From Acetobacter papayae JCM 25143 (GTDB lineage: Bacteria; Pseudomonadota; Alphaproteobacteria; Acetobacterales; Acetobacteraceae), in NCBI RefSeq assembly GCF_000613285.1, contig NZ_BAIN01000021.1, positions 1 to 39,377 of the forward strand: a stretch of DNA of 39,377 nucleotides, given 5' to 3'. Positions 3,919-23,056 of this stretch are shown piece after piece; within the stretch, counting starts at the first letter, position 1; the number at the start of each line of letters is the position of its first letter. Position numbers and translations under genes: made by a program. The notes under the pieces were generated by a model that was not told where the DNA came from, searched no databases, and was given only the letters and a program-made list of their open reading frames with translations.

Positions 3919-6900
3919 TCAGTCAGTCATGATGCTGAGCGTGCTGCGACCGCTGGCACCGGGTGTAATCTCGACCTTGACGGGAATACGTTCCTTCAGT
4001 TCCTCGACATGGCTGATCACCCCAACCCGGCGGCCTTGTGCGTGCAGATGCTCCAGCACGGCAATGGCCTGCCCTAGGCTGGCGGAGTCCAGTGAGCCGA
4101 AGCTTCATCTATGAACAGGCTTTCAATCCGCACACCATGCCCGCATGACATTTCCGACAGCCCCAGTGCCAGCGACAGGCTGACCAGAAAGCGCTCGCCG
4201 CCAGAAAGATTGTGCAGGCCACGGCTCTGGCCCGCCATGTCGTTGTCTACCACCTCGATCAGCATTGCGCTGTCCGCCGTTTCACCCCCGGCGCGCTGGA
4301 GCGTGTAGCGGGGTTTGAGGTCAGCCAACTTTTCGTTGGCAAAGCCCAGCAGGCGGTCAAGGGTCAGGTTCTGGGCAAAACCGCGCAAGACCTTGCCTTT
4401 GGCATCGCCCAGAAGATCGTTGAGGTCTTCCCAGACTTTGCCTTGCTGTTGGGCCTGTTCCAGATCGGCATGCAGTTTTTCTGTCTGGCTGCGGGCCTCA
4501 TCATCCTGCCGCAGGCGAAACAAGATGTCTTGCACAGTCGTTTTTGCCTGTTCTATCTCGGCTGTCGCAAGCTTTATCGTCTGCTCAAGCGACATCCCTT
4601 CCGGCGTGGGGTCGGTCGGGCGCGTGGTATCGTGCTGGTTCAATAGGTGCTGATGGGTGGCAACAGTTGCCTGCGCCGTGGCTATGGCTGTTTCCAGCGC
4701 GCGTAGGGCGTCGGCTTCAATTGCCAGAGCCGTTGCGCCAAGGTTGTTGGCACGTTCCACATCCGCGATACTCAGTGAGGCCTCTGCTAGACGTTCATCA
4801 AGGCGGCACTGGCTCTCTGTGTATTTTTCTTGCGTGGTTACAACCGCGTGTTCACAATCCTGCTTCTGTGTGCTGGCTTTTGCGGCGAATAGGTTTGCAT
4901 TTTCATGCGCATTGCGGGCGATTTTTTCCTGTGTGCTGGCTGTCTGTATGGTGGTAGCCAGCGTGGTTTCAACGGCCTGCACGGATTGCCCGTCCAGCAG
5001 GGTTGCACGCTCCTGCTCAAGGTTTGAACACTGTGTTTCAGCCAGTTTCAGGGCCTGTTGTGCTGCTTCTAGCTGCTGCTGTGCGGTTTTGTCGGCCTGT
5101 CTGGCCTCAGCCGCCCGCGCACTTAGTTCGGGCAAGGCGGCCTCGTTTGCCCGCAGGCGGGTGTTTTTATCTCGCCACTCGGCTGTTTTGTGCGCCAGCC
5201 ACTGGCCGGGATTGGGCTGGTTTTGCCAGTCCGGTGCAATTCTATCCAGCCTGTTGGCCAGAAAGCGGGTCAGCTCTTCCTGTTTGTGTATGGCGGCTGT
5301 CAGGTCGCTTTGCGTGGTGCTGTGGGCAGTCTGGGCCATGCGCAGGCGTTCAGCGGCGTTGTCTGAGAGCCTGCGCTGTTCCTCATAGCTGATACGGGCC
5401 TGCCGTTCGGCTTTGTCTGCTTCTTCCGCCTTTTCCTGTGCTCGGGCCATGGCCGTTTTTTGCTGGGTCAGGCTGTCCAGTCGGGTGCGGAGGCGGAGGG
5501 TCTGCGCCTCGGTATCGGGGGCTGGTGTTTCACCCTCTGCGCACAGGGCCTGATGCAGGGTGGTAGTGGCCTGTGCGCAGAGGGTTTCGTATTCACTCAG
5601 TTTTTGCTTGAGGCTTTTTTGTTGCTGCTCCAGCCGGGCAAGTGGCAGTTGGGCGGCCTTATCGGCTGCTGTCAGGTCGGTCAGTGTTTGTTCGGTGGTG
5701 CGCAGAGCCTGCTCGGCGGCTGTGGTCTCCGCACGCGCTTGTTCCACGGCCTCATCCAGCACTGTTGTGAGAGAGGCAAGGTGATGTTCCGTAGCTCCGC
5801 AGACAGGGCAGGGCTCTCCCGGTGTCAGTGCTTCGCGCAGCAGGCGTGCCGTGCCATCTGTCGCGGCGGAAAGTCGTGTGGCTGCCTTACGTTTTTCTTC
5901 TGCCCGGAGCCGTTGTTCAGGTAAAGCCTGTTCGGCATTTTCTCTGGCTTGCTGGCGTGTTTGTTGTTCCTGTGTCAGGCGGGCAAGGTCTGCAAGAATG
6001 TTCTTATATTCCTGCCTGCTCTGGTGGAGTAGCGAGAGGTCTTTTTGTAATGATGCATTATCCTGCTCTATTTTTGATAATGCGTTATATTCCGCCTGCA
6101 GTGCGTCACTTTGCTGCGTGGTGGGGGCGCACTCTCTTGCCGCGTGCAGGACTTGGGTGGCCTGCTGAAGAGAGGTTTGAGCGGCTGTGCAGTCCTGCTG
6201 GGCGGTCTTTATGGCCGCCTGCGCAAGGTCCAGTTCTTTTTCCTGTGTTGCCAGAGTGTGTTGCAGGGTCAGGATGCCCTGTTCCAACTCATGGCGGGCG
6301 GTCAGCCTGTCGGTAATATCGTGCTCATCATGCGTGAGCCGTTCAAGGGGCTGATGTTCATTCAGCCATGCTTGCAAATCAGCTTTCAGGTTCGTGGCGT
6401 TGGTGAGTGCTGCTGTGGCCTGTTCGGCCTGCTGGTGTGTGTCTCTGCTTTCAGCTTCGCAGGCAGTATGTTTTTCGCGTGCTGTGGTGTTAGCTTGTCT
6501 GGCGGTTGCCAGTGCTGATCGACCGTGCGGGCGGCTGCCAGTTGGGGGGCCGCTTCTGTCTGCCGTTGCTGGGCCTGTGTCAGGTGGTTTTCGGCCTCGG
6601 TTAGCGTTTGCCGGGCGGCCTGCACAGTGTTGCGGGCAGCTTGTTCCGCTATGCGGGCTTGTTCGACGGCTGTTTTGGCCTCTTCGTGTGTCTGTTTCGC
6701 GGCAAGGCTATTCCGCCAGATTTCGGCCAGAGCAAGGGCCTTCAGGTTACGGGCCAACGCATCGCGGCGGGGGGCGGCATTGTCCTGCTCGATTTTGGCA
6801 GCGGTCAGGGTCTTGTGGGCTTCTTCCAGCCGTGTGGCGTGCTGGATACGGTTTGTGTGCCACTCTTGCTGGGTTTGTAGGTTTTTCAGATGGACTTCAC

Positions 6901-7642
6901 TAGTAGTGAGGCTGTCTTGCGCGGTTTTATGGTGTGCCTCCAACTCCGCACGGGCCGTGGGGGCGAGGCAGCTTTTTGCTGCGATCTGCTGCTCTATGGC
7001 CTGATAGGCTTTTTTGACAGCACTCGCTTTTTCAAAAGCAAGCTGGCCAATACGGGTGTAGAGGGCCGTGCCGGTCAGCTTTTCGAGCAACAGGGCGCGC
7101 TCATCGCCCGGTGCCTTGATAAAAGCCTCGAACTCTCCTTGCGCCAGCACTACGGCGCGGCCGAACTGCTGTGCGTTCAGCCCGATCTGGTTGAGAATAT
7201 ACTCTTTGATTTCCTTCTTTTTGTCTGGCAGCGCCGGATGCGCGTCCAGACAGGTCAGCTCCATTCTGGAAGCCTGAAGGGCCCCATCGGGGCGCTTGCG
7301 TGCGCGTTGTACGTTCCATTGGCTGCGGTAGCTGTGCCCATCACGGCCTACGAATTCGAGTGCGGCATAGCCATCGCCCGTGGCATGGCGCAGGATACCG
7401 CGCGGGTCGCTGGGTGACAGGCCATCCTGTGTGCTTTCACCGCTACGGGGGGCGCTATCAAGGCGGGGCAGGCTGTCGAACAATGCCAGACACATGGCGT
7501 CCAGCAGGGTGGATTTACCCGCGCCCGTTGGCCCGGTTATGGCGAAAATACCTGCATTGGCCAGTGGCCCGTCACGGAAATCGAGCGAGAATTCTCCGGC
7601 AAGGCTGGCAAGGTTCTTGCCATGGATGGACAGGATCCGCAT
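3919..7642 (-). CDS. sbcC: SbcC, ATPase subunit of the SbcCD nuclease (two frame breaks)
   Basis: SMC-like ATPase (Rad50 homologue) that works with SbcD to cut hairpins and protein-blocked DNA ends. The N-terminal part (7642 to about 6505) has Walker A, GPTGAGKSTLLDAM. The middle is a long Gln/Ala/Glu-rich coiled coil with the zinc hook CPVCG. The C-terminal part has the ABC signature LSGGERFLVSLSLALGL and Walker B SLFIDE. Two one-base losses break the frame. Near 6505-6507, one added base joins the halves through HWQTARQANTTAREKH. Near 4102, one added base restores FIDEGFGSLDSASLGQA and moves the stop from 4074 to the TGA at 3919. Repaired length is about 1,240 residues. The start shares one base with the sbcD stop (TGATG). 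Real decay is possible, but see the window-wide pattern of losses. Confidence 0.9.
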
Positions 7643-8903
7643 CAGTTGTTTTCATCCATCTGGCCGCTATCATCCTCGCGCGAGGCGGCCAGAACCAGCT
7701 CGGCAAAGGCGCGGCTCAAGGCATCGCTCGGTGGTTTGTGGTGTTTGTGCTGATGCAGGGCGATAAAGACATCTTTCGCCTGCAGGTCGGCCAGATCCCG
7801 GCCGCGCTCACTCGGGGCGGCGTTCTGCCCACTTTGGGGTGCAACGCGACGGATGCGCGTCAGGCGCACGGGCTTGTCTTCCAAAGCCGCCAGAATACGG
7901 GCCTGCAGGTGTGGCTCAGGGCCATCGACCAGAATGGCAATTTCAATAAAAGGCCGCAGTCTGCGGGGCAGGTCTGGCAGATCAAGTGCTTGTATAGCCT
8001 TTACTGCGTCCGCAAGCGGGAGCGCGCCTTGCTCGGGAATACGCAGGAAAGCCACCGGGCGTGGAATGGGCAGGATATCCAGTATGGTGCCTGTCGGCTC
8101 CAGGATGGCCAGCGTTACGGAGTGGCGATAGGCGCGTTCCGTGGCGGAAAGCGGGAAAGGGGAGCCTGCGTAGCGAATGGGCATGGCGGCGTTGAGCGTT
8201 TGGGGGCGGTGCAGGTGGCCAAGGGCGACATAAGCGGCGCGGGGTCGAACAGGTCGGTGGCAGCGGCTTCCTCCCCCCCGATAACAAGGCGGCGCTCGGA
8301 GAGTTCGGACACCTCGCCCCCTGCTACGTGCAGATGGCCGCTCAGCACCATAGGCAGGTCATGCGCTTTTTGCGCTAGTGCCGTTATGATGCGGGCATAC
8401 AGCCCAGCAAGCCCATCGGCCTCAAGGTCAGAAGGGCGGCAGAAGGGAACAGCAGCCAGCCATGCAGCAGTCATGCCATCAGCGTTTTTCAGGGGGATAC
8501 AGATACGCTCCATATCTGGCGTGCGTTCATGGCGGGGTAGTCCCCCGATGAAATGCACATCTGTATCGACCAGTGCGCCCGGCAGGTCGATCCGCAGCGC
8601 GCTATCATGATTGCCGCCGATGATAATGATCTGTAGTCGCGGCAGGCGCTGGCGGATTTGGGCGATAAACCGGTAGAGCCGTTGCTGTGCGGGCACGGAT
8701 GGATTGGCCACATCGTAGATATCACCCGTGACCAGAAGGGCATCGGCCTGTGTCTGTTCCAGCGTGTCCGACAGCCATGCCAGAAAGGCATCGTGCTCGG
8801 CCTCGCGCGTGTGGCCGAACAGTTCATGGCCCAGATGCCAGTCCGATGTATGCAGCAGCCTGACCGGCTTTACGGGCGCGCCGGGGGGAGTAGGCGTTAT
8901 CAT
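7642..8903 (-). CDS. sbcD: SbcD, nuclease subunit of SbcCD (one frame break)
   Basis: Mre11-type metallophosphoesterase, the nuclease half of SbcCD. Metal-binding motifs appear in order: LLHTSDWHLGH, LLVTGDIYD, IIGGNHDS and VLSGHLHVAGG. The frame breaks near 8235-8240. One added base in the GCGCC stretch restores LFDPAAAYVALGHLHRPQTL, including the last metal-binding GHLH, and links to the downstream part ending at 7642. The ATG at 8903 gives a protein starting MITPTPP; an in-frame ATG at 8948 is an alternative and neither has a strong ribosome site. The open frame continues upstream into antisense of gpt, which is not coding. sbcC follows with a one-base overlap, so the two are translated as a pair. 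Confidence 0.9.
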
Positions 8904-9080
8904 GGGGCGAGGGTGCTGTGCAGCGTCAGGGAAAAAGCCATGTTTCATTATGGAGCAGGCAAATTGGGAAAGACAACACCCAGTCTGGCATGGCCATGCG
9001 TTGGAATATCCCCTCTTTAATGCGTTGCATGATGCCCGATTGCGGAGCATGTCTGTTTCTCTGATGGAACGACACACGAC

Positions 9081-10472: not shown

Positions 10473-10535
10473 TTCCGTGAGGCGAAACATATGACTGTGC
10501 TGTTACGGCGAATGGCCTGATTAAGATTGTGATTG

Positions 10536-11612
10536 ATGCGGATTCCAGACACTTCCAAAGTTCCACGTTTGTTGGTCGTGCAGCGGCAGTCCATGACGGA
10601 CGGTCACATGGAATCTCGCACTATAGGTGCCAGATTTGTGCCGTTGCTCACCTATATGCAAAGACACAATCTTCTGGTGTGGGAGCAGCTTTCCGAAACC
10701 GCTATTGATAGCGATTCGCTCAGGCGCTTTGATGCCGTGCTGTTTAACAAGCATGTCTCTAACCAGTCGCTCAGTATCATGAGGTTGGCAAACAAGCTGG
10801 GGCTGCACACGATCTACGATTTAGATGATTGGCTGCTGGATCTGCCGTCGTGGAGTGTGCTCGAAATGAACGCGGGCTTCGTTGACAACGTGTCATCGAT
10901 GATCCGCGAGGCGAGCGTTGCCACGGCCTCCAATCATATTCTGGAGGAGAAGATGCGGCAGCTGCGTCACTCCAGTGTTGTCATTGTCCCTAACGGTTTT
11001 GATCATCAGTCGTTTGATCTGTCGCCGGGGCATTGGCAGGAAAAGACACCGCCTAAAATAATTTTTTCCAATCTGGATGGTGTTAAGCTCATAAATTTCA
11101 GAGCTCAGTTTTTTTTAGGCTTGTCGCAGGTTGTTGAGAAAAACCCTCAGCTGAAAATTGATTTTTGGGGCGATGCTTTTCCCGAAATGCACGATCTTCC
11201 CAATCTTGTTCATCGCGGTAGTCTTGCGAATATTGAATATAAGAAGGCCATTCGGGATGAAGGGTATTTGTTTGGGATTGTTCCTCTAGGTGCGGAAGAA
11301 GATCCGGACACGTTTTTCTTCAACTCATGCAAGTCGGCCATCAAATATGTTGATTATGGGAGCCTAGGGATTCCGGCAATATATTCGGATTGTCCGACAT
11401 ATCGCGGCACCATTTCGCACCGCGTAACCGGTTATATTGCGCAGAATAATGCACAGGCATGGGCGCAGGCGTTTGATGAAATGCTGACCAGTTCCCAATT
11501 GCGCAATACGATACGCAAAAACGCCTTCGAAGATGTGCATAAGCGTTTTACGGTTGAGCATATTTCCAAAATGTTTCTGCGCGCGTTGCCGCAAAATATC
11601 TCGCAAGGTTAA
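10536..11612 (+). CDS. Glycosyltransferase, GT-B fold, first gene of the glycan island
   Basis: Probable sugar transferase for a surface polysaccharide, acting at the cytoplasmic face of the membrane. The N-terminal half has the IYDLDDWLLDLP motif seen in O-antigen-type transferases and VIVPNGFD at the domain boundary. The C-terminal half has the donor-site pattern CKSAIKYVDYGSLGIPAIYSD. The protein of 358 residues is intact. The ATG at 10536 is chosen; a TTG directly before it is the alternative and no strong ribosome site is visible. Base composition is low: 44 of 120 bases at 11041-11160 are G or C by hand count, against about 60% in housekeeping genes here. That suggests transfer. Donor and acceptor sugars are unknown. 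Confidence 0.85.
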   Translation: MRIPDTSKVPRLLVVQRQSMTDGHMESRTIGARFVPLLTYMQRHNLLVWEQLSETAIDSDSLRRFDAVLFNKHVSNQSLSIMRLANKLGLHTIYDLDDWLLDLPSWSVLEMNAGFVDNVSSMIREASVATASNHILEEKMRQLRHSSVVIVPNGFDHQSFDLSPGHWQEKTPPKIIFSNLDGVKLINFRAQFFLGLSQVVEKNPQLKIDFWGDAFPEMHDLPNLVHRGSLANIEYKKAIRDEGYLFGIVPLGAEEDPDTFFFNSCKSAIKYVDYGSLGIPAIYSDCPTYRGTISHRVTGYIAQNNAQAWAQAFDEMLTSSQLRNTIRKNAFEDVHKRFTVEHISKMFLRALPQNISQG

Positions 11613-11620
11613 AGCTGAGC

Positions 11621-12211
11621 ATGGACCTTCTTCTTATCCGCCATGGCCAGTCACATGGGAATGTCGCAGGCTTGTTGAATGCGACAGTGCACGATGAACT
11701 TACGCAGTATGGAATGGAGCAAGCGGGAAGCCTGCGTGGATTGATGCAGCAGCGCGGATTGGCCCCTGATATTGTGTATTCCAGTCCGTGGAAACGGGCT
11801 CTCCAGACCACCGAGATTATTTTTTCTGATCAGAAAAACTGGTCGATTGATGCGAGGCTGGGCGAAACGGATCCCGGAAAATTTGCGTCATGGCGTGCCG
11901 AGGATTTTAAAGTAAAATTCCCTCAATTCGGCGAAAAACTCTCGGATCGCTATAGTGAAGGTGAATCGCATCTGGAACTGGCTGCGCGTTCCATTGACTG
12001 GCTGGAGCAGGAGTTTCTAGCCCGCTTGGATGCCCCCGGTCTTCTGGCGGCTGTTTGCCATGCCGGTCCCATTGCTGTCATTAGCCAGTATTTATTGAAT
12101 ATACCCTTGTCGATGTTTCCGAATGTTCTGGTGCCAAACGCATCGCTGACATTATTTCGAAAAGATAAAAATTCGAGAAAAATCATTCTTGAATATGCTG
12201 GGTTGTCGTAA
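11621..12211 (+). CDS. Histidine phosphatase (phosphoglycerate-mutase-like superfamily)
   Basis: Phosphatase of the two-histidine superfamily. The catalytic LLIRHGQSHGN is at the N-terminus, with ELTQYGMEQAG and IVYSSPWKRALQTTEII following, and the second histidine is in AVCHAGPI. Length, 196 residues, is normal. It starts 8 bases after the glycosyltransferase and shares its low GC, so the two probably arrived and are transcribed together. The substrate is unknown; a sugar phosphate or other phosphorylated glycan intermediate is an inference from position only. Confidence 0.88.
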   Translation: MDLLLIRHGQSHGNVAGLLNATVHDELTQYGMEQAGSLRGLMQQRGLAPDIVYSSPWKRALQTTEIIFSDQKNWSIDARLGETDPGKFASWRAEDFKVKFPQFGEKLSDRYSEGESHLELAARSIDWLEQEFLARLDAPGLLAAVCHAGPIAVISQYLLNIPLSMFPNVLVPNASLTLFRKDKNSRKIILEYAGLS

Positions 12212-12546
12212 AAAATCTGATCAAAATTGACAGTATTCATTGGGTTTTGATGGCAGGTGTGCTTGCAAGATAGATAGTGCCTGATGGCGGTCGGTTGTGT
12301 TGCAATGTGTAAAGCTTGAAGACCGAGGGATATGCTTGATTTTGAGCCTGTTGCATCTTGGATTGTCGGACGATCTGGTGCATGGCATAGTTGCTACCTA
12401 ACGGGGCTCTTGTTTTTGATTTGAGCCTAAAAGGTGTCAGGAAAACACGGTCTTCTTGCGTGGGCGAGGGATACTGGTTAATCGCTTGTTTGCCGTCAGT
12501 CGATGTTTGTCAGCCAGCAACTGCATTTGGGAATGCTATCAGATAC
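12212..12546. other. Intergenic stretch upstream of rfbA
   Basis: About 335 bases without a supported gene. The rfbA frame stays open back to 12391, but that extension has no family similarity. A TTGACA at 12227-12232 lacks a good -10 at the right distance. No clear hairpin found. Confidence 0.5.
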
Positions 12547-13446
12547 ATGCTCAAGTCTAAATACAAAGGCATAATATTGGCAGGTGGACGCGGGACGCGC
12601 CTTTACCCTGCGACCCTTTCCATTAGCAAGCAGTTGCTCCCGGTTTATGACAAGCCGATGGTCTATTACCCGCTGAGCACGCTGATGCTGGCAGGTATTA
12701 CCGAAGTGCTGATCATTTCGACGCCAAGTGCCTTGCCGCTTTATCAGGAGCTGCTCCGCACTGGTGAAGACCTTGGCATGCGGTTTGAATACGCCATTCA
12801 GGCTGAGGCGCGTGGGCTGGCGGAAGCCTTCATTATTGGTGAGCGCTTCATCGGCTCATCCAATGCCGCTCTGGCGCTGGGTGATAATATTTTTTACGGG
12901 ACGGGTGTTGGCGATAGCGTGCGCCGTGCGGGTGAGCGCAGGGAAGGGGCAACGGTTTTTGCCTGCACAGTTAGCGACCCAGAGCGTTATGGTATTGTCG
13001 AGTTCGACGCCGATGACGTTAACCCCGTATCGATTGTGGAAAAGCCCAAGCACCCCAAAAGCAATTATGCCGTAACCGGGCTGTATTTCTACGACAACGA
13101 TGTCATTGAGATTTCCAAGGGTATCAAGCCTTCAGCGCGCGGTGAGCTTGAAATTACGACTGTGAACGAGGTTTACCTACAGGCAGGTAAGCTCAATGTT
13201 GAACGGCTTGGCCGCGGCAATGCGTGGTTTGACACCGGAACCCATGACAGCCTGCTGGAATCCAGCCAGTTCGTGCAGACTATTGAAAAACGGCAGGGCC
13301 AGAAGATCGCGTGTATTGAAGAGATCGCTTGGCGCATGGGCTTTATTGACGATGAGCAGCTAGAGCAACTGGCGCACCCGTTGGTTGCAAGCGGTTATGG
13401 TAAATATCTGCTTGGCCTGCTGCATAATCGGCAGAGTGGTCACTAA
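12547..13446 (+). CDS. rfbA: Glucose-1-phosphate thymidylyltransferase
   Basis: First enzyme of dTDP-L-rhamnose synthesis, making dTDP-glucose from dTTP and glucose 1-phosphate. The nucleotidyltransferase signature [16 protein letters not shown] with [11 protein letters not shown] is at the N-terminus. [42 protein letters not shown] and [14 protein letters not shown] follow RmlA family blocks. ATG 12547 gives 299 residues, the normal length. The three other pathway genes (rfbC, rfbB, rfbD) lie about 8 kb downstream on the same strand. Confidence 0.95.
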
Positions 13447-13486
13447 CTCCGTCTGTTGAGGCCTCTGCCGCTTTCATGATCGCGCT

Positions 13487-13503
13487 GGCCCGGTGAACGG
13501 GCC
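13487..13503 (+). terminator. GC-rich stem-loop after rfbA
   Basis: GGCCCG (13487-13492) and CGGGCC (13498-13503) form a perfect six-pair stem with a GTGAA loop, 40 bases after the rfbA stop. There is no T run, so it could be a weak or factor-dependent terminator or only a structural element. Confidence 0.3.
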
Positions 13504-13551: not shown

Positions 13552-14520
13552 TTGCGACTTCTCCTCACGACCTATCATCAGGCGTTTCTGACCCATGGCG
13601 GCGGCGAGACCGAGCTGCGGCAGTTGGCCGAACTTATCAACGATCTTGGGGTCAGGGCCGATATCTATGGTCCATCGTCAAAGCGGCTGAGCTTTTACGA
13701 TGCGGTGATCCATTTTTCCGCTCATGGCGGGGGGGAGCAGTTGCTGGCCGAGGTCAAGGCTGCGGGAACTCCTGTCATTCTGCTGCCCAATTTCAATTTT
13801 TTTGATCTTCAGCACACCGCGCGTGGGGTTGTGCAGCGGCACCTCGATCTGGCGGATCTGGTTATCCTGCGCACCGAGCAGGAGCGGGCACTGTGCGTTG
13901 AGCATTTTGCCATTGCGCCTGAACGTACTGCCGTGGTGCCTGCGGGCATTTCGGCTGCTTTCGGCAGGCCTGTGGAAGAAAACCTGTTCAAATCAGCCTA
14001 TGGGCTTGAGCAGTTTATCCTGTGGGTTGGGCAGATTGAGGAGGGTAAACAGCAGTTGCGGGCTATTGAGGCCCTGCAGGATGGTGATATCCCTCTGGTG
14101 TTTATCGGCGGCCATCGTGACAAGGCTTATTATGATCGCTGCCGAGCCGCTGCCGGGGAAAATGTGCGCTTTCTGCCCTATGTGCAGCCCAATTCCGAGA
14201 TACTGCGCTCAGCCGTGCAGAGTTGCGATGCCTATATCGAACTGGGGCTCGACTATCCGGGCTTTTCGTCACTGGAGGTGGCTCTGGCGGGGCGGCCTAT
14301 GGTGTTGAACGATCATCCATGGTCGCGTGAAGTGCTGGGTAATGCTCCGGTTTATGTCGAAAACGACACACCGCAGGCAATCCGTGCTGCCATGAAGCAG
14401 GCACTCGCCGGAAAGGGCGCTGGGGAACTGGTCGAGCGCATGAAGGCGCTGCATGTCCAACCCAAACCAACGCAACAGTTGCTCGAACTTGTTGAAGAGC
14501 TGTGTAAGGGCCGCAAGTAG
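13552..14520 (+). CDS. Glycosyltransferase, GT-B fold
   Basis: Probable polysaccharide sugar transferase. The N-terminal THGGGETELRQLAELI is the typical acceptor-side start. VVPAGIS and FILWVGQIEEGKQQLRAIEAL mark the GT4-like second domain, and YPGFSSLEVALAGRPMVLND carries the donor-binding E-x7-E-like region. The protein has 322 residues, a compact GT-B. The best start is TTG 13552 with AGGTG just upstream; GTG 13545 is in the same frame's neighbourhood but reads a different frame. The gene converges with the epimerase on the minus strand, six bases apart. Specificity is unknown. Confidence 0.85.
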   Translation: MRLLLTTYHQAFLTHGGGETELRQLAELINDLGVRADIYGPSSKRLSFYDAVIHFSAHGGGEQLLAEVKAAGTPVILLPNFNFFDLQHTARGVVQRHLDLADLVILRTEQERALCVEHFAIAPERTAVVPAGISAAFGRPVEENLFKSAYGLEQFILWVGQIEEGKQQLRAIEALQDGDIPLVFIGGHRDKAYYDRCRAAAGENVRFLPYVQPNSEILRSAVQSCDAYIELGLDYPGFSSLEVALAGRPMVLNDHPWSREVLGNAPVYVENDTPQAIRAAMKQALAGKGAGELVERMKALHVQPKPTQQLLELVEELCKGRK

Positions 14521-14526
14521 TCTGCC

Positions 14527-15489
14527 TTAACCCAGCGAGGAGAAGGCGCGCTCAGGCCGTTCACGCAGGTCGCTGATCATTCGCCACACGCCTTCGTCCA
14601 GACTTAAGGCTGGGCTCCAGTCGAGATCGGTTTTGGCAGCGGTAATATCTAGCACGCTTACTGGCACATCAAAGGGGCGACCGGGTTTGCGGTCAATGGT
14701 CAGAGCGTGGCCGACATGGCGCTCAACAGAGGTAATGATCTCGTTGACACTGGCCCCTCTGCCGCTCCCGATATTGTAGATCATGCGGGTGCGGAGGTCT
14801 TGTGCCGGGGCTTCTGCCAAGCAGATCAGCCCTGCGGTTACATCGTTAATATGGATGAAATCACGCACAACCAGACCATCGCCCCAGATTTCGATAGGGG
14901 TGCCGGATAAAGCGTGATGAACCACCGTGGTTGCCAGCCCCTGAGGGCGTGCCGGATGCTGGCCTGCGCCGAACGGGTTGGCAACCCGCGCAATGCGCGT
15001 ATCGATACCATAAAGGTCACGGTAGAAATTAAGATAGGTTTCGGCGCTGACTTTGGAGGCCCCATAGGCGGTGATCGGGGCTAGGGGGTGAGTTTCAGGC
15101 ACTGGAATGGTCTGCAGTTTGCCGTAAACTGTTCCGCCAGATGAACTGAAAACCATCCGTCCACCGCCGCTGCGGCGCATGGCTTCCAACAGGCCGATGG
15201 TGGTGCCCAGATTGGCATGCAGGTCGGCCTGCGGGTCAAGATTGGCTGTTTGCGGGATGGTCGTCCAAGCATAATGGTGGACGATATCCGCGCCAGCCAC
15301 GATGGCATCAAAATCAGCAGCGGTGGCTGTAAGCAGATCCAGCGTGAGGCATTCAGGTTGCTCAAGGCCCGGATCTTCACTTTGATAGTGAGAAAGATCG
15401 ACAACACGCACGGTATTGCCATTTGCCAGCAACTGCCGGGCGACATGCCGTCCGAGAAAACCGCTGCCGCCCAGAACAACGTGCCGCAT
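14527..15489 (-). CDS. NAD-dependent epimerase/dehydratase (extended SDR), UDP-glucose 4-epimerase-like
   Basis: Sugar-nucleotide-modifying enzyme of the extended short-chain dehydrogenase family. GGSGFLGRHVA binds NAD, VFSSSGGTVYG holds the catalytic Ser/Thr, and YGASK has the Tyr-x3-Lys pair. RVANPFGAGQHP, VVRDFIHINDV and YNIGSGRG are the usual substrate-side blocks. Length, 320 residues, is normal. Its ATG shares one base with the stop of the upstream transferase (TAATG on the minus strand), so the two are translationally coupled. Exact reaction (4-epimerase or 4,6-dehydratase) cannot be settled by eye. Confidence 0.88.
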   Translation of the reverse strand: MRHVVLGGSGFLGRHVARQLLANGNTVRVVDLSHYQSEDPGLEQPECLTLDLLTATAADFDAIVAGADIVHHYAWTTIPQTANLDPQADLHANLGTTIGLLEAMRRSGGGRMVFSSSGGTVYGKLQTIPVPETHPLAPITAYGASKVSAETYLNFYRDLYGIDTRIARVANPFGAGQHPARPQGLATTVVHHALSGTPIEIWGDGLVVRDFIHINDVTAGLICLAEAPAQDLRTRMIYNIGSGRGASVNEIITSVERHVGHALTIDRKPGRPFDVPVSVLDITAAKTDLDWSPALSLDEGVWRMISDLRERPERAFSSLG

Positions 15490-17711
15490 TAGCGTGAACT
15501 CTCCGCGACATAGGTTGTGGCATAGGTATAACCTGCTTTTCTGACAGCAAAAGTCAGCAGGCGCTCGAGTGTGTGGAGAATGGTGCCGTCAATGGGCAGG
15601 GGTTCGGGGGGGAAGTCATCCCAACCAAGCCCCAGATCAAACATGGGCTGGAGTGCTTCCGGGCGTGCCCAGAACATTGTCCCGATGGGGAAATCGAAGT
15701 GCACCGGCAGCGGGGCTTCAAGGCCCATGCGTGGTGCAAGAACTTCAGCGATTGCCCGGTTCTGATCCCAGCCATTAAGATGTGGGTCTTCGGGGAAGAC
15801 CATCCCCAAGGTTGGGTTTTCAGCAAATGCGCTTACGGCCAGATCCATCATCGGGTATTTGTCTCCGATGAGATGCTGCCAGGCAAATTCGCGCCAGCGT
15901 TCGCCTATGGCCTGATCGACATGGCGGCTACGTTTGCCGTGGACATGACCCACGATATCGTATTGTCCAGCAAGCCGCTGAGGCATGTCTACAAGGAAGG
16001 GGCCAATATCTCGCCCTTTGTTCGGGACGCTCCAGACCTCGGCATTGGTAATGCCTGCGGCAGCAAGGGCGCTGCGAATTTCTTCTTCCTGAGCTGGGCC
16101 TGAAGTGGTGAGGAAGAGATCGGCTTTTCCGGCATTGGCGGCGAGATGGTGCAGAAAATCCGGCACCAGATCAGCATAGTAAAAATGCCCATGGATAGCG
16201 ACACGGGCATTCGTCGGTTTGGTGATGACACCGGGAAACACGACGGGATGGAGCCATGGACCTTCTGGGCGGCCTGCATTCAGAAAATGCGCCAGAGGGT
16301 CTTCGCCTGTTGTTTCGACCTCCGGTGTGTTGAGTGCGTAAATCAGGGGGTTGAAGCCAGGGAAAGGCCTGCGAATGAAAAGCCCCGCATCAGGCTGCGT
16401 GAGCGGGCGCGCCAGACGAGCATTATTCAGGTATTCGACAATGCCGCCTTCAGGGGTTTTGTCCGCGGCCAGTCGCCCGAAATACAGACGGGGCTCGAAC
16501 ACCTCAGCCTGTGTGATTACAGCAAGGTCGGTAGGGATTTGCTCCCGTTCCTGAATGGCCTGCCGCCCTAATGCATCAATGCTTGCGACATAGCTGTCCA
16601 TATCGAACAACGTGGTGGCGTGGCTACGGATGACGCTGGAAAACTGTTCAAGTTTTGCCCGGTCATCAATCAGTTCAGCAATCAGGCGGGCTGCGGCCGT
16701 GCTGTCCATGTAAGGCACAACGAGGTCGCGGGTGGCAGGGTCGGCTGCCAGAATTTCGCCCATGCCGTTGGTGTCGTCGAAGCTGATGATGGGCAGGCCC
16801 TTGAGGGCCGCGTCGATGGCAACATTGGGGAGCGGGTCCAGGCGCGAGCTTAGGAAAAAGACATCCGCACAATCATAGGCGGGATCAAGGTCGCTGACCT
16901 CTCCCAAAAATACGAAATTGTCTGCAAGGCCGGATTTTGCGACCTGCTCCTCTACGGCGAGATGGTAACGCCAGTCTACGGGAATGCTGTCGCCCACCCA
17001 GATAAACCGAAAATCGTCCCGTCCCAGATCGCGCTTGAGTGTTGCCGCGGCCGCGATAAAGGCATCCACCCCTTTGCGATAGGTGATCGTGCCCATGCCA
17101 ACGACTGTGAACCTGTCATCCTTGGGGGGGGCTTTCGCCGGTGCGGAGGCTTCTGCTGTGGAGGAAGGGGGGACGATCGAAGGCCCCTGACGCAGGATGG
17201 TATGATCCCGACCGCGAAGGTAGCTGTATTTGCTACGACACTCGGCAAAAACGATTTCTGCGGGAAAGACCAGCCGCGAGGTTTTGATGAAGAGTGGGTT
17301 GAGCGTGCCAAGGGGTGTGAAGGTCGAGGTAAATTCATGCACGAGGGCAATGACAGGAAGATTCGCTTCCTCCAGTGCTACGGCAAGGTGGCGGGTGGCA
17401 GCACTATTGGCGATGGCATAAAGCGGCCGATAGGTGTCTATAAGCGTTTGGGCGATAGAACGGGTTTCCGGCGCTCCATCCCCCAGAGGTGTGGAGAGTG
17501 TGATCGTGGCTGCGGCGTTTTCGCGGATAGCCTCTTCGATCGGACCGCCTTCGAGCAGAACTGTAATGACATTATACTGGCGGGACATTTTTCTTAAAAT
17601 GTTCCAGCCAAGGATCGGAGCGCCGGTGCGTGAAGCATCGTGCAGCAGCAGCAGGATGTTCTCCTTGCCTGCTTGCAGGGTGTCGGTCGGGCAATCCAGA
17701 ACAATTTTCAC
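15489..17711 (-). CDS. Two-domain glycosyltransferase: GT4 plus RgpF-like rhamnan synthesis domain
   Basis: Large transferase of 740 residues. The first half is GT4-like: LLLLHDASRTGAPILGWNIL, VVGMGTITYRKGVDAFI, and SRLDPLPNVAIDAALKGLPI. Near residues 450-495 one copy of a short repeat appears (FNPLIYALNTPEV ... DPLAHFLNAGRPEG). The C-terminal quarter matches rhamnan synthesis protein F: VAIHGHFYYADLVPDFLHHL, NKGRDIGPFLVDMP, GHVHGKRSRH, FPIGTMFWARPEAL. RgpF-type domains are known from rhamnose-polymer synthesis, and this island makes dTDP-rhamnose. Starts at GTG 17711, overlapping the stop of the small upstream frame (GTGA); that junction may instead be one more lost base. Confidence 0.88.
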   Translation of the reverse strand: MKIVLDCPTDTLQAGKENILLLLHDASRTGAPILGWNILRKMSRQYNVITVLLEGGPIEEAIRENAAATITLSTPLGDGAPETRSIAQTLIDTYRPLYAIANSAATRHLAVALEEANLPVIALVHEFTSTFTPLGTLNPLFIKTSRLVFPAEIVFAECRSKYSYLRGRDHTILRQGPSIVPPSSTAEASAPAKAPPKDDRFTVVGMGTITYRKGVDAFIAAAATLKRDLGRDDFRFIWVGDSIPVDWRYHLAVEEQVAKSGLADNFVFLGEVSDLDPAYDCADVFFLSSRLDPLPNVAIDAALKGLPIISFDDTNGMGEILAADPATRDLVVPYMDSTAAARLIAELIDDRAKLEQFSSVIRSHATTLFDMDSYVASIDALGRQAIQEREQIPTDLAVITQAEVFEPRLYFGRLAADKTPEGGIVEYLNNARLARPLTQPDAGLFIRRPFPGFNPLIYALNTPEVETTGEDPLAHFLNAGRPEGPWLHPVVFPGVITKPTNARVAIHGHFYYADLVPDFLHHLAANAGKADLFLTTSGPAQEEEIRSALAAAGITNAEVWSVPNKGRDIGPFLVDMPQRLAGQYDIVGHVHGKRSRHVDQAIGERWREFAWQHLIGDKYPMMDLAVSAFAENPTLGMVFPEDPHLNGWDQNRAIAEVLAPRMGLEAPLPVHFDFPIGTMFWARPEALQPMFDLGLGWDDFPPEPLPIDGTILHTLERLLTFAVRKAGYTYATTYVAESSR

Positions 17712-18001
17712 TGGAGCGCTACGCGCCCTTCCGCATGACCATAAAGCGCAAAATGCTGCAGGAGCCCTATCGAGGATGTCGCCACATCAGGATAGCGGCT
17801 TGCATAATACTGGGGGTTGAACAGTCTGGAAGGTGCGATCCCCTGCGCTTCACCGACCTGCAGGTAATGTTCCAGCGGTGACAGACCAAGCTTTTTTGCA
17901 TCAGCGGTCAGGGCATAATAATTTTCATCAAAAAACGGGGCAATCTGCGCTTCGTTTTTCAATATTGCCTTTATGGCTGCCGGGGATTTCTTGTTGTGCA
18001 A
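17708..18001 (-). CDS. Small protein of two 'FDP-YY / PL-HYL' repeats, possible N-terminus of the next transferase
   Basis: Frame of up to 97 residues made of two copies of a short motif: FFDENYYALTADAKKLGLSP with LEHYLQVGEAQG, then LFNPQYYASRYPDVA with LLQHFALYGHAEGR. This repeat is familiar as a leader or linker in large bacterial glycosyltransferases, and a third copy lies inside the 740-residue transferase that follows. Starts are TTG 18001 or, with AAGG upstream, TTG 17962. The stop overlaps the next gene's GTG. Either a small coupled gene, or the true N-terminus of the transferase separated by one lost base near 17708-17711. I favour the second given the other breaks, but the overlap is also what coupled genes look like. 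Confidence 0.6.
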   Translation of the reverse strand: MHNKKSPAAIKAILKNEAQIAPFFDENYYALTADAKKLGLSPLEHYLQVGEAQGIAPSRLFNPQYYASRYPDVATSSIGLLQHFALYGHAEGRVALQ

Positions 18002-18306: not shown

Positions 18307-21300
18307 ATGCAAAGCCTCGCGGGTAAACTGGCTGAGGCGTACCGTCATAATCAAGAATTTGACTATGATATCCCTCAGGCCCTTATTGCGGTCTGGCTGG
18401 CCTGCGGTCCTGACTTTCAGCTTCTGCACGATATCCAGAGTGACAGAGGGCTGGACAGCCTTGTTTACTGGTGGCTGACTGCAGGGCGCGGTACGTTCGA
18501 GGGTCTTGCCGATGTCATCGACCGTAATCTGGCGGAGCAACTGCACCTTAACCCGATGCGTGGCGGAGCGCGCGATGGTCGGCTGATCGTAACGCCGCTG
18601 CTGCGTCTGGTGCTGCGGCACCGTGCGGATCTGAGCGCTTTTTTCGATGTAAAAACACAGGATGGTCTGTCCGACCTCTGGTGCTGGTGGCTTGAGCATG
18701 GCCAGCATGAATATCTGAAAGCGCCTGAGTGGTTCATGCAGGCCCAGACGGCGCTCCTGCATGAATCCCCTGCGGGGTTAGATGAAATTGCAGCCGGCTT
18801 GCCCCTTACTCCGCTATTGCGGCTGATATGGAAACATAACGCTGATCTTAGGGCCGGAATCTCACTTGATACCCTGCAGGGGAGAGAGAGCCTCTGGCTC
18901 CATTTCCTTACAATTGAAGTGGGAGCACTTTCCCTCCCTTATGCGGGCATGCCGTCCACGCCCAATCTGAAACACCCCAAAATTCCCGACCCGGTGTTGC
19001 TGGTTTACGGCACCCGTGCGGATTTGCGGCGTGTTTTCGATATCAGGAAGCCGGAAGGCGTCGAGGGGCTGCTTCATTGGTGGTTGCAGGGGGGCTGTGT
19101 TTACTCAACGCTTTGGAAGCGCTCTCTGCCGGAACTGACAGGCCTGTTTGACCAGCCGGACGATATCGACAGCGCGCTCATGCCTCTGCTGGTACTGATT
19201 GCACGGCAGCGGCAGGATTTGCATCTGCCTGATCCAGATACGCAGGATGGGCGGGGGCGTTTGCTCAACTGGTGGCTGCTGGATGGCTGGCGGCTGTATC
19301 CGGCAGTGGCCAAAAGAGCCCGGCTGGCGCTGACGGAAGCCCTGCACCTGAACTGGCTGCCCGCCATGGCCCGTGCCGGTCGGCTTGGGCTGACACCGTT
19401 GCAGCGGGTTGTCCTGCAGGCACGGCCTGATGTGGCGAGTGTGGTTGAGGATGGAAGTGACGCAGGCATAAGGCGGGTATGGTGGTGGTGGCTGACTGAG
19501 GGGCAGCGATGCTATCTGGGTGCCCCAGGCTGGCTGTCTGTGGCTCAGGTCCGATGGCTACATTGCTGTGAGGGCATGGATTTCGGGAGCACAGGCGTAA
19601 TCCAGCCGACTTTGCTGATGGATATCGTGACCGACATTGTGCTCGGGCTTTCTCCTGCCGAGGCAGGCTCGGTGCCGGATCTGTGGGCCGCCACTATCCA
19701 GAAGGCGGCAATATTGGGCTTGCCAGATGACGGCATGCCATATTTCAACTCATCGGTGGCATCGGGGTTGAAAACCGGGGCTGCGCAGGGTTTTGAGCCT
19801 CTGTTCGCGGATTATGCCGCGATCATTCACATGGTGCGCGCCGATATCGCGCAGGCCTTCGATCTGACGCAGCCTGATGGCCTGCGTGGGCTCATAGACT
19901 GGTATCTGCAATTTGCCATTCAGGGGTATCCGCATCTGGCTGACCCGCTGGGGGCTGGCCCACGCGCAGCACTTGGTCGGCCTATGCCCGGTAGTCATGC
20001 AGCGCTGGATATCCCCGCTATCGGATGGCTGTTTGCCCTGTCCCGTGCCGCTGGAGATCCGGTTGTGCAGGGGGCGGATGATGCCCCAGCGCAGGAAGCC
20101 TGGTGGAATAGGGCGGGGAAGGCGAAATACCGTACGATTCCGGCTGATGTTCTCGTGCCAGTCGGGGAGAAGTCCGCTCTTGCTCCGCAGGGCGGGGTAG
20201 CCTCGGCAGAGGCGGAGAGCGATCTGGCAATTTCGCTGGTCGGTTACCCGCGTGGGGAGTTCGGGCTGGGAGAAGATATCCGCCTGCTGCGTGCTTCGAT
20301 GCAGAGTGTGGAGATCAATCCCACCGTTGTGCGGGCACCATGGACGATCATAGCGCGACAAGGGGCGGATGAGCCTTCGATAGAGGCGGCTCTGGCCGAG
20401 TTCGGCACCGATGTCATGTTCTATGTCATGCCTGCGTTTGATACGGCCACCTTGCTGGCCAAGGTGGGTGTGCGAGCGTTTTCAGCACGGCGCAGGATAG
20501 GGTTCTGGCAATGGGAACTGGAGCATTTTCCAGAACCCGCCAAGGTCGCCATGGAACTGGTGGACGAAATCTGGTGCCATTCGGAACATTCTGCCCGGGC
20601 CTTCCGCGAGGCTACAGACAAGCCGGTTATCAAGGTGCCGCTACCGGTTGCCGTGCCGGAAGTGTGCTCGGTCGATCGGGCCGAGTTCGATCTCCCGGAT
20701 GACGGATTCGTGGTTTTTACGAGCTTTGACGGGGCCTCCTCGATTTCGCGCAAGAATCCGCTGGGGGCGATTTTGGCGTTCCAGCGTGCCTTTCCTGCCC
20801 ATGAGCATCCGCAGGCCCGGTTGGTTATCAAGGCCATGAATACGCTGCCGGATTCGTTGTGGCATGAATGCCTGCGTAAGGCGGTGATCGATCCCCGTAT
20901 TCTTATTCGCAACGAAGTCATGGATCGCGCCCGTTATTACGAGTTGCTCAAGGCCTGTGATGCGGTGATTTCGCTGCACCGTGCCGAGGGGTTTGGCCGG
21001 TTGATGGCCGAAGCAATGGGGCTGGGCATACCGGTGATCGCCACGGCTTATTCCGGCAATATGGACTTCATGACGGAAGAGAATAGCTGGTTGGTGGGCG
21101 GAGACATGGTTCCGGTCTTTGCTGGTGATTATGCTTTTTATTCAGGGCAGCGCTGGATGGAGCCTGATATTGCCATTGCAGCGCGTGCTTTGCGGGAATG
21201 CGCGGATAATCCTATCATGCGGGCCGCCAAGATTGCCGCGGCCCGTCAAACCATTGCGCAGTACAGTCCTTCCCGGTGTGGAGAAGTTTACAAGACGCTG

Positions 21301-21315
21301 CTGGCAGGAGGGTAG
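18307..21315 (+). CDS. Large glycosyltransferase: array of Trp-rich repeats plus C-terminal GT4 domain
   Basis: Protein of 1,002 residues. The first two thirds are about nine units of a Trp-rich repeat (see the repeat entry). From about residue 640 a GT4-type transferase follows: ISLVGYPRGEFGLGEDIRLL, IGFWQWELEHFPEP, VFTSFDGASSISRKNPLGAI, and the E-x7-E donor site in HRAEGFGRLMAEAMGLGIPV. I place the start at ATG 18307 (MQSLAGKLAEAY); GTG 18298 and an upstream ATG 18235 are in frame, and AGGGG at 18290-18294 sits between ideal distances. It diverges from the minus-strand operon and precedes rfbC. The repeat part has no known function. Probably a polysaccharide transferase; the repeats could bind glycan, membrane or partner enzymes (inference). 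Confidence 0.87.
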   Translation: MQSLAGKLAEAYRHNQEFDYDIPQALIAVWLACGPDFQLLHDIQSDRGLDSLVYWWLTAGRGTFEGLADVIDRNLAEQLHLNPMRGGARDGRLIVTPLLRLVLRHRADLSAFFDVKTQDGLSDLWCWWLEHGQHEYLKAPEWFMQAQTALLHESPAGLDEIAAGLPLTPLLRLIWKHNADLRAGISLDTLQGRESLWLHFLTIEVGALSLPYAGMPSTPNLKHPKIPDPVLLVYGTRADLRRVFDIRKPEGVEGLLHWWLQGGCVYSTLWKRSLPELTGLFDQPDDIDSALMPLLVLIARQRQDLHLPDPDTQDGRGRLLNWWLLDGWRLYPAVAKRARLALTEALHLNWLPAMARAGRLGLTPLQRVVLQARPDVASVVEDGSDAGIRRVWWWWLTEGQRCYLGAPGWLSVAQVRWLHCCEGMDFGSTGVIQPTLLMDIVTDIVLGLSPAEAGSVPDLWAATIQKAAILGLPDDGMPYFNSSVASGLKTGAAQGFEPLFADYAAIIHMVRADIAQAFDLTQPDGLRGLIDWYLQFAIQGYPHLADPLGAGPRAALGRPMPGSHAALDIPAIGWLFALSRAAGDPVVQGADDAPAQEAWWNRAGKAKYRTIPADVLVPVGEKSALAPQGGVASAEAESDLAISLVGYPRGEFGLGEDIRLLRASMQSVEINPTVVRAPWTIIARQGADEPSIEAALAEFGTDVMFYVMPAFDTATLLAKVGVRAFSARRRIGFWQWELEHFPEPAKVAMELVDEIWCHSEHSARAFREATDKPVIKVPLPVAVPEVCSVDRAEFDLPDDGFVVFTSFDGASSISRKNPLGAILAFQRAFPAHEHPQARLVIKAMNTLPDSLWHECLRKAVIDPRILIRNEVMDRARYYELLKACDAVISLHRAEGFGRLMAEAMGLGIPVIATAYSGNMDFMTEENSWLVGGDMVPVFAGDYAFYSGQRWMEPDIAIAARALRECADNPIMRAAKIAAARQTIAQYSPSRCGEVYKTLLAGG
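18385..20130 (+). repeat. Nine-unit protein-level tandem repeat, period about 68 residues, Trp-Trp core
   Basis: Units start at 18385, 18598, 18814, 18994, 19186, 19399, 19612, 19816 and 20023; spacing is 60-72 residues. The shared core is hydrophobic-x3-Arg-x-Asp-Leu, then Phe-Asp, a Gly-Leu/Arg turn, Leu-x2-Trp-Trp-Leu, and Gly-x3-Tyr. Clear examples are RHRADLSAFFDVKTQDGL with LWCWWLEHGQHEY (unit 2), TRADLRRVFDIRKPEGV with LLHWWLQGGCVY (unit 4) and VRADIAQAFDLTQPDGL with LIDWYLQFAIQGY (unit 8). Units 7 and 9 are degenerate. DNA identity between units is low, so the array is old. Confidence 0.8.
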
Positions 21316-21412: not shown

Positions 21413-21964
21413 ATGCAACTGACAGAACTGGCCATTGATGGCGTGTTCGAAATCCTGCCGACACGGCATCAGGATGAGCGCGGCTATTTTGCGGAGACAT
21501 TTCGCAGCGACTGGTTCGCGGCCAATGTTGCCGATGTTCCCTTCGTGCAGGAAAACCAGTCGCTCAGCCGCAGTGTGGGCGTGGTGCGCGGCCTGCATTT
21601 TCAGGCGGCCCCCTTTGCGCAGGGCAAGCTGGTGCGGTGTGTGGCCGGTGCGATTTTCGATGTGGCGGTTGATATCCGCCATGAGTCCCCCAGCTTTGGC
21701 AAATGGGTGGCAACAACCCTGACAGCCGAGAAGGGCAACCAGCTCTGGATTCCTGAAGGCTTTCTGCACGGCTTTTGCACGCTTACGCCCGATACGCAGG
21801 TGTCGTACAAGGTTACGAACTACTACGACAAGGCGAGTGACAAGGGCGTGCTGTGGAACGATCCGCAGATTGGTATCCAGTGGCCCGACATTGCCGATCC
21901 GGCAAGCCTGTCTGCCAAGGATCAGGTGCAGCCAAAACTGGCGGATTTGCCCGCTTATTTCTGA
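21413..21964 (+). CDS. rfbC: dTDP-4-dehydrorhamnose 3,5-epimerase
   Basis: Third enzyme of dTDP-L-rhamnose synthesis. The cupin-fold family blocks are all present: DERGYFAETFR, FVQENQSLSRSVGVVRGLHF with the catalytic His, GKLVRCVAGAIFDVAVDIR, LWIPEGFLHGF, and YKVTNYYDKASDKGVLWND with the catalytic Tyr region. The protein has 183 residues, the normal length, with no break. It opens the rfbC-rfbB-rfbD set, with rfbB 21 bases downstream. Confidence 0.96.
   Translation: MQLTELAIDGVFEILPTRHQDERGYFAETFRSDWFAANVADVPFVQENQSLSRSVGVVRGLHFQAAPFAQGKLVRCVAGAIFDVAVDIRHESPSFGKWVATTLTAEKGNQLWIPEGFLHGFCTLTPDTQVSYKVTNYYDKASDKGVLWNDPQIGIQWPDIADPASLSAKDQVQPKLADLPAYF

Positions 21965-21985: not shown

Positions 21986-23056
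<1,071 letters not shown>

Follow-up and report, generated by a model that had tools for sequence, protein, structure and literature searches.

The window, the whole 39,377-nucleotide stretch of Acetobacter papayae JCM 25143 DNA analysed here, encodes a 1002-residue protein (18307..21315, forward strand) whose first two thirds are an array of Trp-containing units and whose last third is a GT4 glycosyltransferase, as delimited by its open reading frame and Pfam matches. By sequence comparison, this array is real, and it represents a helical repeat module of glycosyltransferases that is uncatalogued and fairly widely distributed. We put at about one half the probability that the alpha-helical array acts as a glycosyltransferase scaffold or spacer, a function suggested by domain context and by analogy with known systems. 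The novelty is in the family and its arrangement, and the role is likely of a known kind. How separate glycosyltransferases join into a machine for one defined polysaccharide is poorly understood, and here a glycosyltransferase predicted to build a surface polysaccharide carries a kind of repeat absent from the protein-family libraries searched. A description of the family would serve proteins now annotated just as "glycosyltransferase", and its natural variants with 3, 5, 6 and 7 units let one ask whether repeat number or repeat surface determines partners, acceptor or chain length.

Repeat Units and Modelled Fold

When residues 1-640 were compared with themselves, 6 of 370 lags scored higher than the best of 200 shuffles, which reached 47, and the top lags were 267, 274, 72 and 131. 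The units were located with a profile built from relatives only (165 rows, duplicate loci included, no window rows), although the profile used to collect those rows had itself drawn some of its seeds from the window. The relatives-only profile recognized seven window units at 25.1-58.0 bits, compared with 9.1 bits for the best domain in 500 shuffles. Both results bear out the regular array that a preliminary description had proposed. All units lie on the forward strand. Unit 1 (aa 18-72, 18358..18522, 52.8 bits) is the position-conserved first unit, its six best matches being the first units of relatives, and is followed by unit 2 (aa 91-142, 18577..18732, 58.0 bits), unit 3 (aa 164-198, 18796..18900, 31.3 bits), unit 4 (aa 230-263, 18994..19095, 34.6 bits), unit 5 (aa 291-335, 19177..19311, 25.1 bits), unit 6 (aa 359-409, 19381..19533, 32.4 bits) and unit 7 (aa 504-547, 19816..19947, 29.2 bits). 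Units 3 and 6, absent from the seeds, were still found by the seed profile at 19.0 and 21.9 bits, respectively. The preliminary description had counted about nine units, and seven are clear, unit 7 being its eighth. Its ninth is a marginal Trp half-unit (aa 591-611, 20077..20139) that gave 1.8 bits in the whole protein and 6.1 bits when the stretch was searched alone, and residues 407-500 have no detectable unit similarity (-4.3 bits with the relatives-only profile). Core starts set by the seed profile (22, 95, 166, 226, 291, 362 and 502) are 73, 71, 60, 65, 71 and 140 residues apart, in agreement with the spacing proposed earlier up to the missing unit, which leaves the gap of 140. As scored by these profiles, the array is real and consists of seven clear units, one marginal half-unit and one position without similarity. 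At the DNA level the window lacks any repeat as long as a unit (nothing reached 40 nt; one 21-nt match had period 11), so the array is old.

The core motif was as first described in a comparison of 119 units from 37 ORFs, which included the window and dropped most duplicate loci (L010 and L053, whose units are identical, were both kept). Trp occupies W40 in 117 of 118 units and G45, five residues further on, is Gly in 105 of 117, while D21 is Asp in 100 of 119 and R19 is Arg in 92 of 119, making R-x-D-L a strong motif. The near-invariance of the conserved Trp suggests a role in the core. The glycan-binding aromatic face proposed earlier was not upheld, since a Trp that is nearly invariant across units and proteins looks like a core residue. 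The same residue bears on a related possibility, namely that the array binds acceptor or product, gripping the growing glycan or its lipid carrier and so setting the acceptor specificity or processivity of GT4. The units are indeed aromatic-rich, with 27 Trp in the first 600 residues, and polymer binding by the CpsD TPR domain is left open in the discussion of a published study (PMC11666461), but with the conserved Trp invariant in the manner of a core residue we consider such a module rather unlikely.

An AlphaFold2 model based on 24 sequences (mean pLDDT 70.9) predicts units 1 and 2, at a pLDDT of about 90, to consist of a short helix, a second short helix past the R-x-D-L kink, a loop, a long helix that bears the Trp pair and, last, a linker helix. 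Because confidence drops below 50 in six stretches (aa 164-178, 184-224, 261-288, 419-500, 546-592 and 602-637), the model does not establish a regular solenoid along the entire array; of the helical solenoid envisaged earlier, the helical character of the units stands, confidently in units 1 and 2 only. Trp-rich helices could also lie at a membrane interface, and the array might attach a soluble GT4 to the inner membrane, the site of the lipid-linked acceptor, in a protein that has no standout transmembrane segment to do so instead (highest 19-residue hydropathy mean 1.52). However, the window array is acidic, with a net charge of -19 over 600 residues, and of 68 arrays, counting duplicates, 48 carry a net negative charge, which disfavours binding to acidic lipids and makes membrane attachment very unlikely.

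Search for a Known Family

No model in Pfam or NCBIfam matched the window array at E values up to 1. When 20 array stretches were searched separately, Pfam returned scattered weak matches to 7 families (best E 0.025), with DUF6409 weakly matched in 3 of the 20, and PHROGs returned 10 families, each in at most one of the 20 (best E 0.0017). The earlier statement that the repeat cannot be assigned to a named family is thus supported by the lack of a convincing match in Pfam-A, NCBIfam and PHROGs. In a profile search of the PDB, DRC1 matched at E 0.0058 across 78 columns; this match and four weaker ones we read as chance. No description of the Trp-unit repeat was found in the open-access literature by title or abstract opening.

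A plain protein search found relatives in none of 99 other genomes (48 from the genus, 11 from the family and 40 from the class). A later scan with the unit profile detected units in at least 21 other genomes of the family, all belonging to other genera.

Distribution and Domain Order

Relatives were collected from one genome per species using peptides conserved in GT4, a search biased towards GT4 that yielded 33 loci, several of them near-duplicates. Units precede GT4 in 32 of the 33, and L041, cut by a contig end, shows GT4 only. These loci come from bacteria such as Rhizobium, Aurantimonas, Azospirillum, Halomonas, Geobacter and Acidobacteriota. Scans of genomes based on the unit profile lack the GT4 bias, and they found units in at least 22 of 249 genomes of the window's family (its own included), at least 8 of 385 of the class (its own included) and at least 7 of 398 of the phylum (its own and two already in the class list included), amounting to at least 32 other genomes for the three scans together.

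In the loci of 32 other genomes we counted 37 unit-bearing ORFs, which are related by kinship rather than independent and include ORFs cut by a contig end or lying in overlapping frames (e.g., L111, L119 and L133). All 37 carry a transferase domain. Nineteen have the architecture GT-A-units-GT4, eight have units-GT4 and ten have GT-A-units; no other order occurs among the 37, GT-A being always N-terminal and GT4 always C-terminal of the units. The name GT-A is ours, and seven of the 37 ORFs supplied its profile. None of eight GT-A members tested has a Pfam match, and against the PDB a profile of these members gave LgtC twice and a GT8 protein with weak E values of 0.32-0.45, the best alignment running through the YLDPDI stretch. 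This GT-A-like family, with YLDPDI and HFSG motifs, is present at L082, L083, L085, L088, L094, L118, L127 and L131.

Between GT-A and GT4, the 19 fused ORFs have 1-6 copies of the unit, and the window protein has 7. Overall the copy number ranges from 1 to 7, with a single unit in 14 of the 37 ORFs, a number that speaks against the acceptor-binding module considered above. The fused ORFs (19 of 37), together with GT-A and GT4 as an adjacent split pair at L089, form what is, judging from gene structure, a Rosetta-stone pattern. Two longer GT4 proteins on Rhodobacterales plasmids (L096 and L100) have one very weak unit each, at 10.6 and 14.5 bits, which may be distant forms of the Trp-unit repeat.

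A scaffold or spacer role is probable because the units sit beside or between transferase domains in other bacteria, and the scaffolding role raised in the preliminary description thereby gains indirect support from the domain context of all 37 ORFs. In the relatives, the array lies between GT-A and GT4 in one chain, or at the C-terminal end of one and the N-terminal end of the other. In the window, it may act in trans to position GT4 against partner transferases from the same dTDP-rhamnose island, and may match GT4 to the acceptor or partners of that island. Since no second unit-bearing protein was seen in the window's genome (18 of 45 candidates scored, assembly 87% complete), the partner cannot be a second such array, unless the array self-associates or one was missed. 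The partners would be another kind of protein, the array itself or a protein absent from the 87% complete assembly.

Divergence of the Array and the GT4 Domain

In a GT4 tree of 38 rows, the window protein groups with Aurantimonas (95/90), and the two sit inside a Rhizobiaceae/Aurantimonadaceae set in which arrays have 3-6 units. Copy number differs among close kin, and 3, 5, 6 and 7 units occur on GT4 domains that are 68-98% identical. Recent tandem duplication was found in L032 (300 nt at 89%), L040 (201 nt at 89%) and L028 (122 nt at 84%), and none was found in the window array DNA.

Two loci, L031 (strain NBRC 13257, 3 units) and L032 (strain 17-2069-2c, 5 units), are both labelled Rhizobium rhizogenes, each standing for a species in the genome collection used. 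Their GT4 domains are 91% identical at the amino acid level and 89% at the DNA level, whereas their arrays are 30% and 42% identical, respectively, over 280 aligned columns, with best unit-versus-unit pairs at 42-47% identity. Continuous DNA homology starts at position 8883 of L031 (aa 341, the start of the GT4 domain) and runs about 8 kb downstream, with gaps, at 89-91%; upstream of GT4, similarity is present in one glycosyltransferase gene only. Because the first approximately 55 residues of GT4 are 68-76% identical and the remainder 88-100%, the exchange point may fall inside GT4, and the junction may be merely where the last shared homology lies. With the array diverged and GT4 conserved between these loci, the array appears to go with the variable island and not with most of its own GT4. 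An array that differs between islands while GT4 stays is also what would be expected of the specificity part of an acceptor-binding enzyme.

The array diverged 1.8-7.6 times more than GT4 in 15 of 15 chosen pairs, which were hand-picked, are not mutually independent and in 10 cases have unequal copy number; pairs with equal copy number agree in direction, e.g., L042/L045 with 48% identity in the array versus 88% in GT4. A plain spacer under weak constraint, flexible or rigid, would likewise diverge faster than GT4, its sequence and copy number drifting without functional meaning, and copy number does vary among close kin. However, 117 of 118 units retain W40, the first unit shows conservation by position and none of the 37 ORFs breaks the order of the units with respect to GT-A and GT4, so we judge a weakly constrained spacer of this kind to be decidedly unlikely. 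The role of a scaffold or spacer that joins transferases and fits them to the product of the island suits the constant position of the array, its fused and split versions and its exchange with the island.

The Polysaccharide Island

The GT4 domain (aa 641-1002, 20227..21315, forward strand) is delimited by Pfam, the AlphaFold2 model and a GT4 profile (552 bits). The window protein has four Pfam matches, all to GT4-type glycosyltransferase models, and two of them, PF00534 (36.1 bits, cut-off 26.4) and PF13692 (33.6 bits, cut-off 27), lie above the curated cut-off within aa 815-931. By this match to Pfam glycosyl transferases group 1, the C-terminal part is a GT4 member. The gene is set in a polysaccharide island with dTDP-rhamnose genes, of which rmlA (12391-13446) and rmlC (21413-21964) score above the NCBIfam cut-off and an rmlD ORF scores just below it. 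An rmlB-like gene at 21986-22950 on the forward strand is found in two overlapping frames (21986-22588 and 22522-22950), and because each frame matches a different part of the same models, either the gene is broken or the assembly contains a frameshift. The left part of the island has a GC content of 0.49-0.51 at 10501-13500, compared with 0.56-0.63 in the other 1500-base blocks.

Two products of the island are candidate partners of the array protein. The first, identified by Pfam, BLAST and gene neighbourhood, is a GT4-type glycosyltransferase (13552..14520, forward strand); in 13 of 33 loci, BLAST finds a relative with 28-69% identity close to the array gene. The second, supported by Pfam, a repeat profile and locus comparison, is a GT4 and RgpF protein (15489..17711, reverse strand) that carries one unit of another repeat, for which we use the working name FDP-YY/HYL (HYL for short); in L031 and L033, too, this gene and the array gene are divergent. 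In both loci, relatives of the 13552 glycosyltransferase, an epimerase and the RgpF protein with HYL lie beside the array GT4 with order and orientation kept, and rmlA is further out on the opposite strand. A divergent 97-residue ORF (17708..18001, reverse strand) holds two HYL units, a possibly related repeat. The RgpF-type gene at 15489-18001 (reverse strand) is split into this ORF and one of 740 residues, overlapping at 17708-17711; its counterpart in L031 and L033 is one ORF of 832 or 866 residues that opens with HYL units and matches RgpF by BLAST. At L037, L038, L040 and L047 (4 of 33 loci), the array GT4 is followed, in this sequence, by genes resembling the 13552 glycosyltransferase, the 11621 ORF, which is phosphoglycerate-mutase/phosphatase-like with scores below every cut-off, and the 10533 glycosyltransferase.

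A Neighbouring Repeat

The HYL repeat is 38 residues long and is carried by the divergent genes at 15489-18001. HYL proteins occurred within the fetched stretch in 8 of 33, 5 of 23 and 0 of 10 loci in three locus sets, and HYL repeats are common generally (95 plasmid records). The preliminary description proposed that the two repeats may share a fold. The HYL profile matched nine ORFs at E 1e-4, the window array ORF not among them, and hhalign with 49 HYL units gave a short in-register match at a probability of 15.6% (score 14.67; 0 of 250 shuffles as high), a first look with 32 HYL units having been weaker (score 13.0; 1 of 200 shuffles higher). Two collinear blocks, PDVAASG/PDLQAAF and LSYGAAE/LTHGRAE, are among the top pairs of sequence windows. 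Since 65 of 1000 shuffles reach the single-window score, the link rests on both blocks jointly, and 5 and 2 of 1000 column shuffles attain their joint score, a statistic chosen after seeing the blocks. Of the shared fold, what stands is a weak, suggestive collinear relation, against the missing profile match and the low hhalign probability, and a common core of the two repeats is likely but unproven.

The HYL repeat resembles the Trp-unit array in the two collinear blocks and in forming tandem arrays in glycan enzymes, but differs in length (38 versus about 68 residues), in lacking an invariant Trp and by 8 residues between the two blocks. At L094 (Azospirillum sp. B510 plasmid pAB510f), one ORF at 5194-8970, cut by the end of the stretch, has 31 HYL matches and adjoins a fused GT-A-unit-GT4 gene and rfbC/rfbB/rfbD. 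One may speculate that arrays of Trp units and of HYL units branched from a single helical repeat fold and serve as an exchangeable assembly code for bacterial glycosyltransferases, in which copy number and surface sequence choose the transferases that join a machine and the array swaps with the island while GT4 stays constant, an idea that we hold to be unlikely.

Comparison with Known Systems

Chain terminators of the WbdD type are reported to use a coiled coil as a molecular ruler (PMC11231755), which is like the array in being a long non-catalytic spacer within a polysaccharide-assembly complex. Unlike the WbdD coiled coil, the array is modelled as many short helices, much of it at low confidence, and no terminator domain was recognised by Pfam in the window protein.

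The TPR has a period of one 34-residue helix-turn-helix. The Trp-unit array departs from this with a spacing of 60-73 residues and with three to four helices per unit of about 68 residues in the model (confident for units 1-2), and no Pfam TPR model matched the window protein or the 20 array stretches at E values up to 1. The window protein's Pfam matches likewise contain no TagF-like domain. In architecture, however, the TagF-like capsule polymerases Cps3D, Cps7D and Cps1B resemble the array protein, having helical repeats with a variable number of helices fused to transferase domains. The TPR domains of Cps3D and Cps7D are reported to differ in helix number and oligomeric state and to be needed for elongation (PMC11666461), whereas that of Cps1B is reported to mediate oligomerisation and not to be needed for activity (PMC5974469); oligomerisation is thus reported for both Cps3D and Cps1B (PMC11666461, PMC5974469). 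By analogy with these enzymes, our best reading is that the array, though not a TPR by sequence, would work in the manner of the TPR domain that TagF-like capsule polymerases carry.
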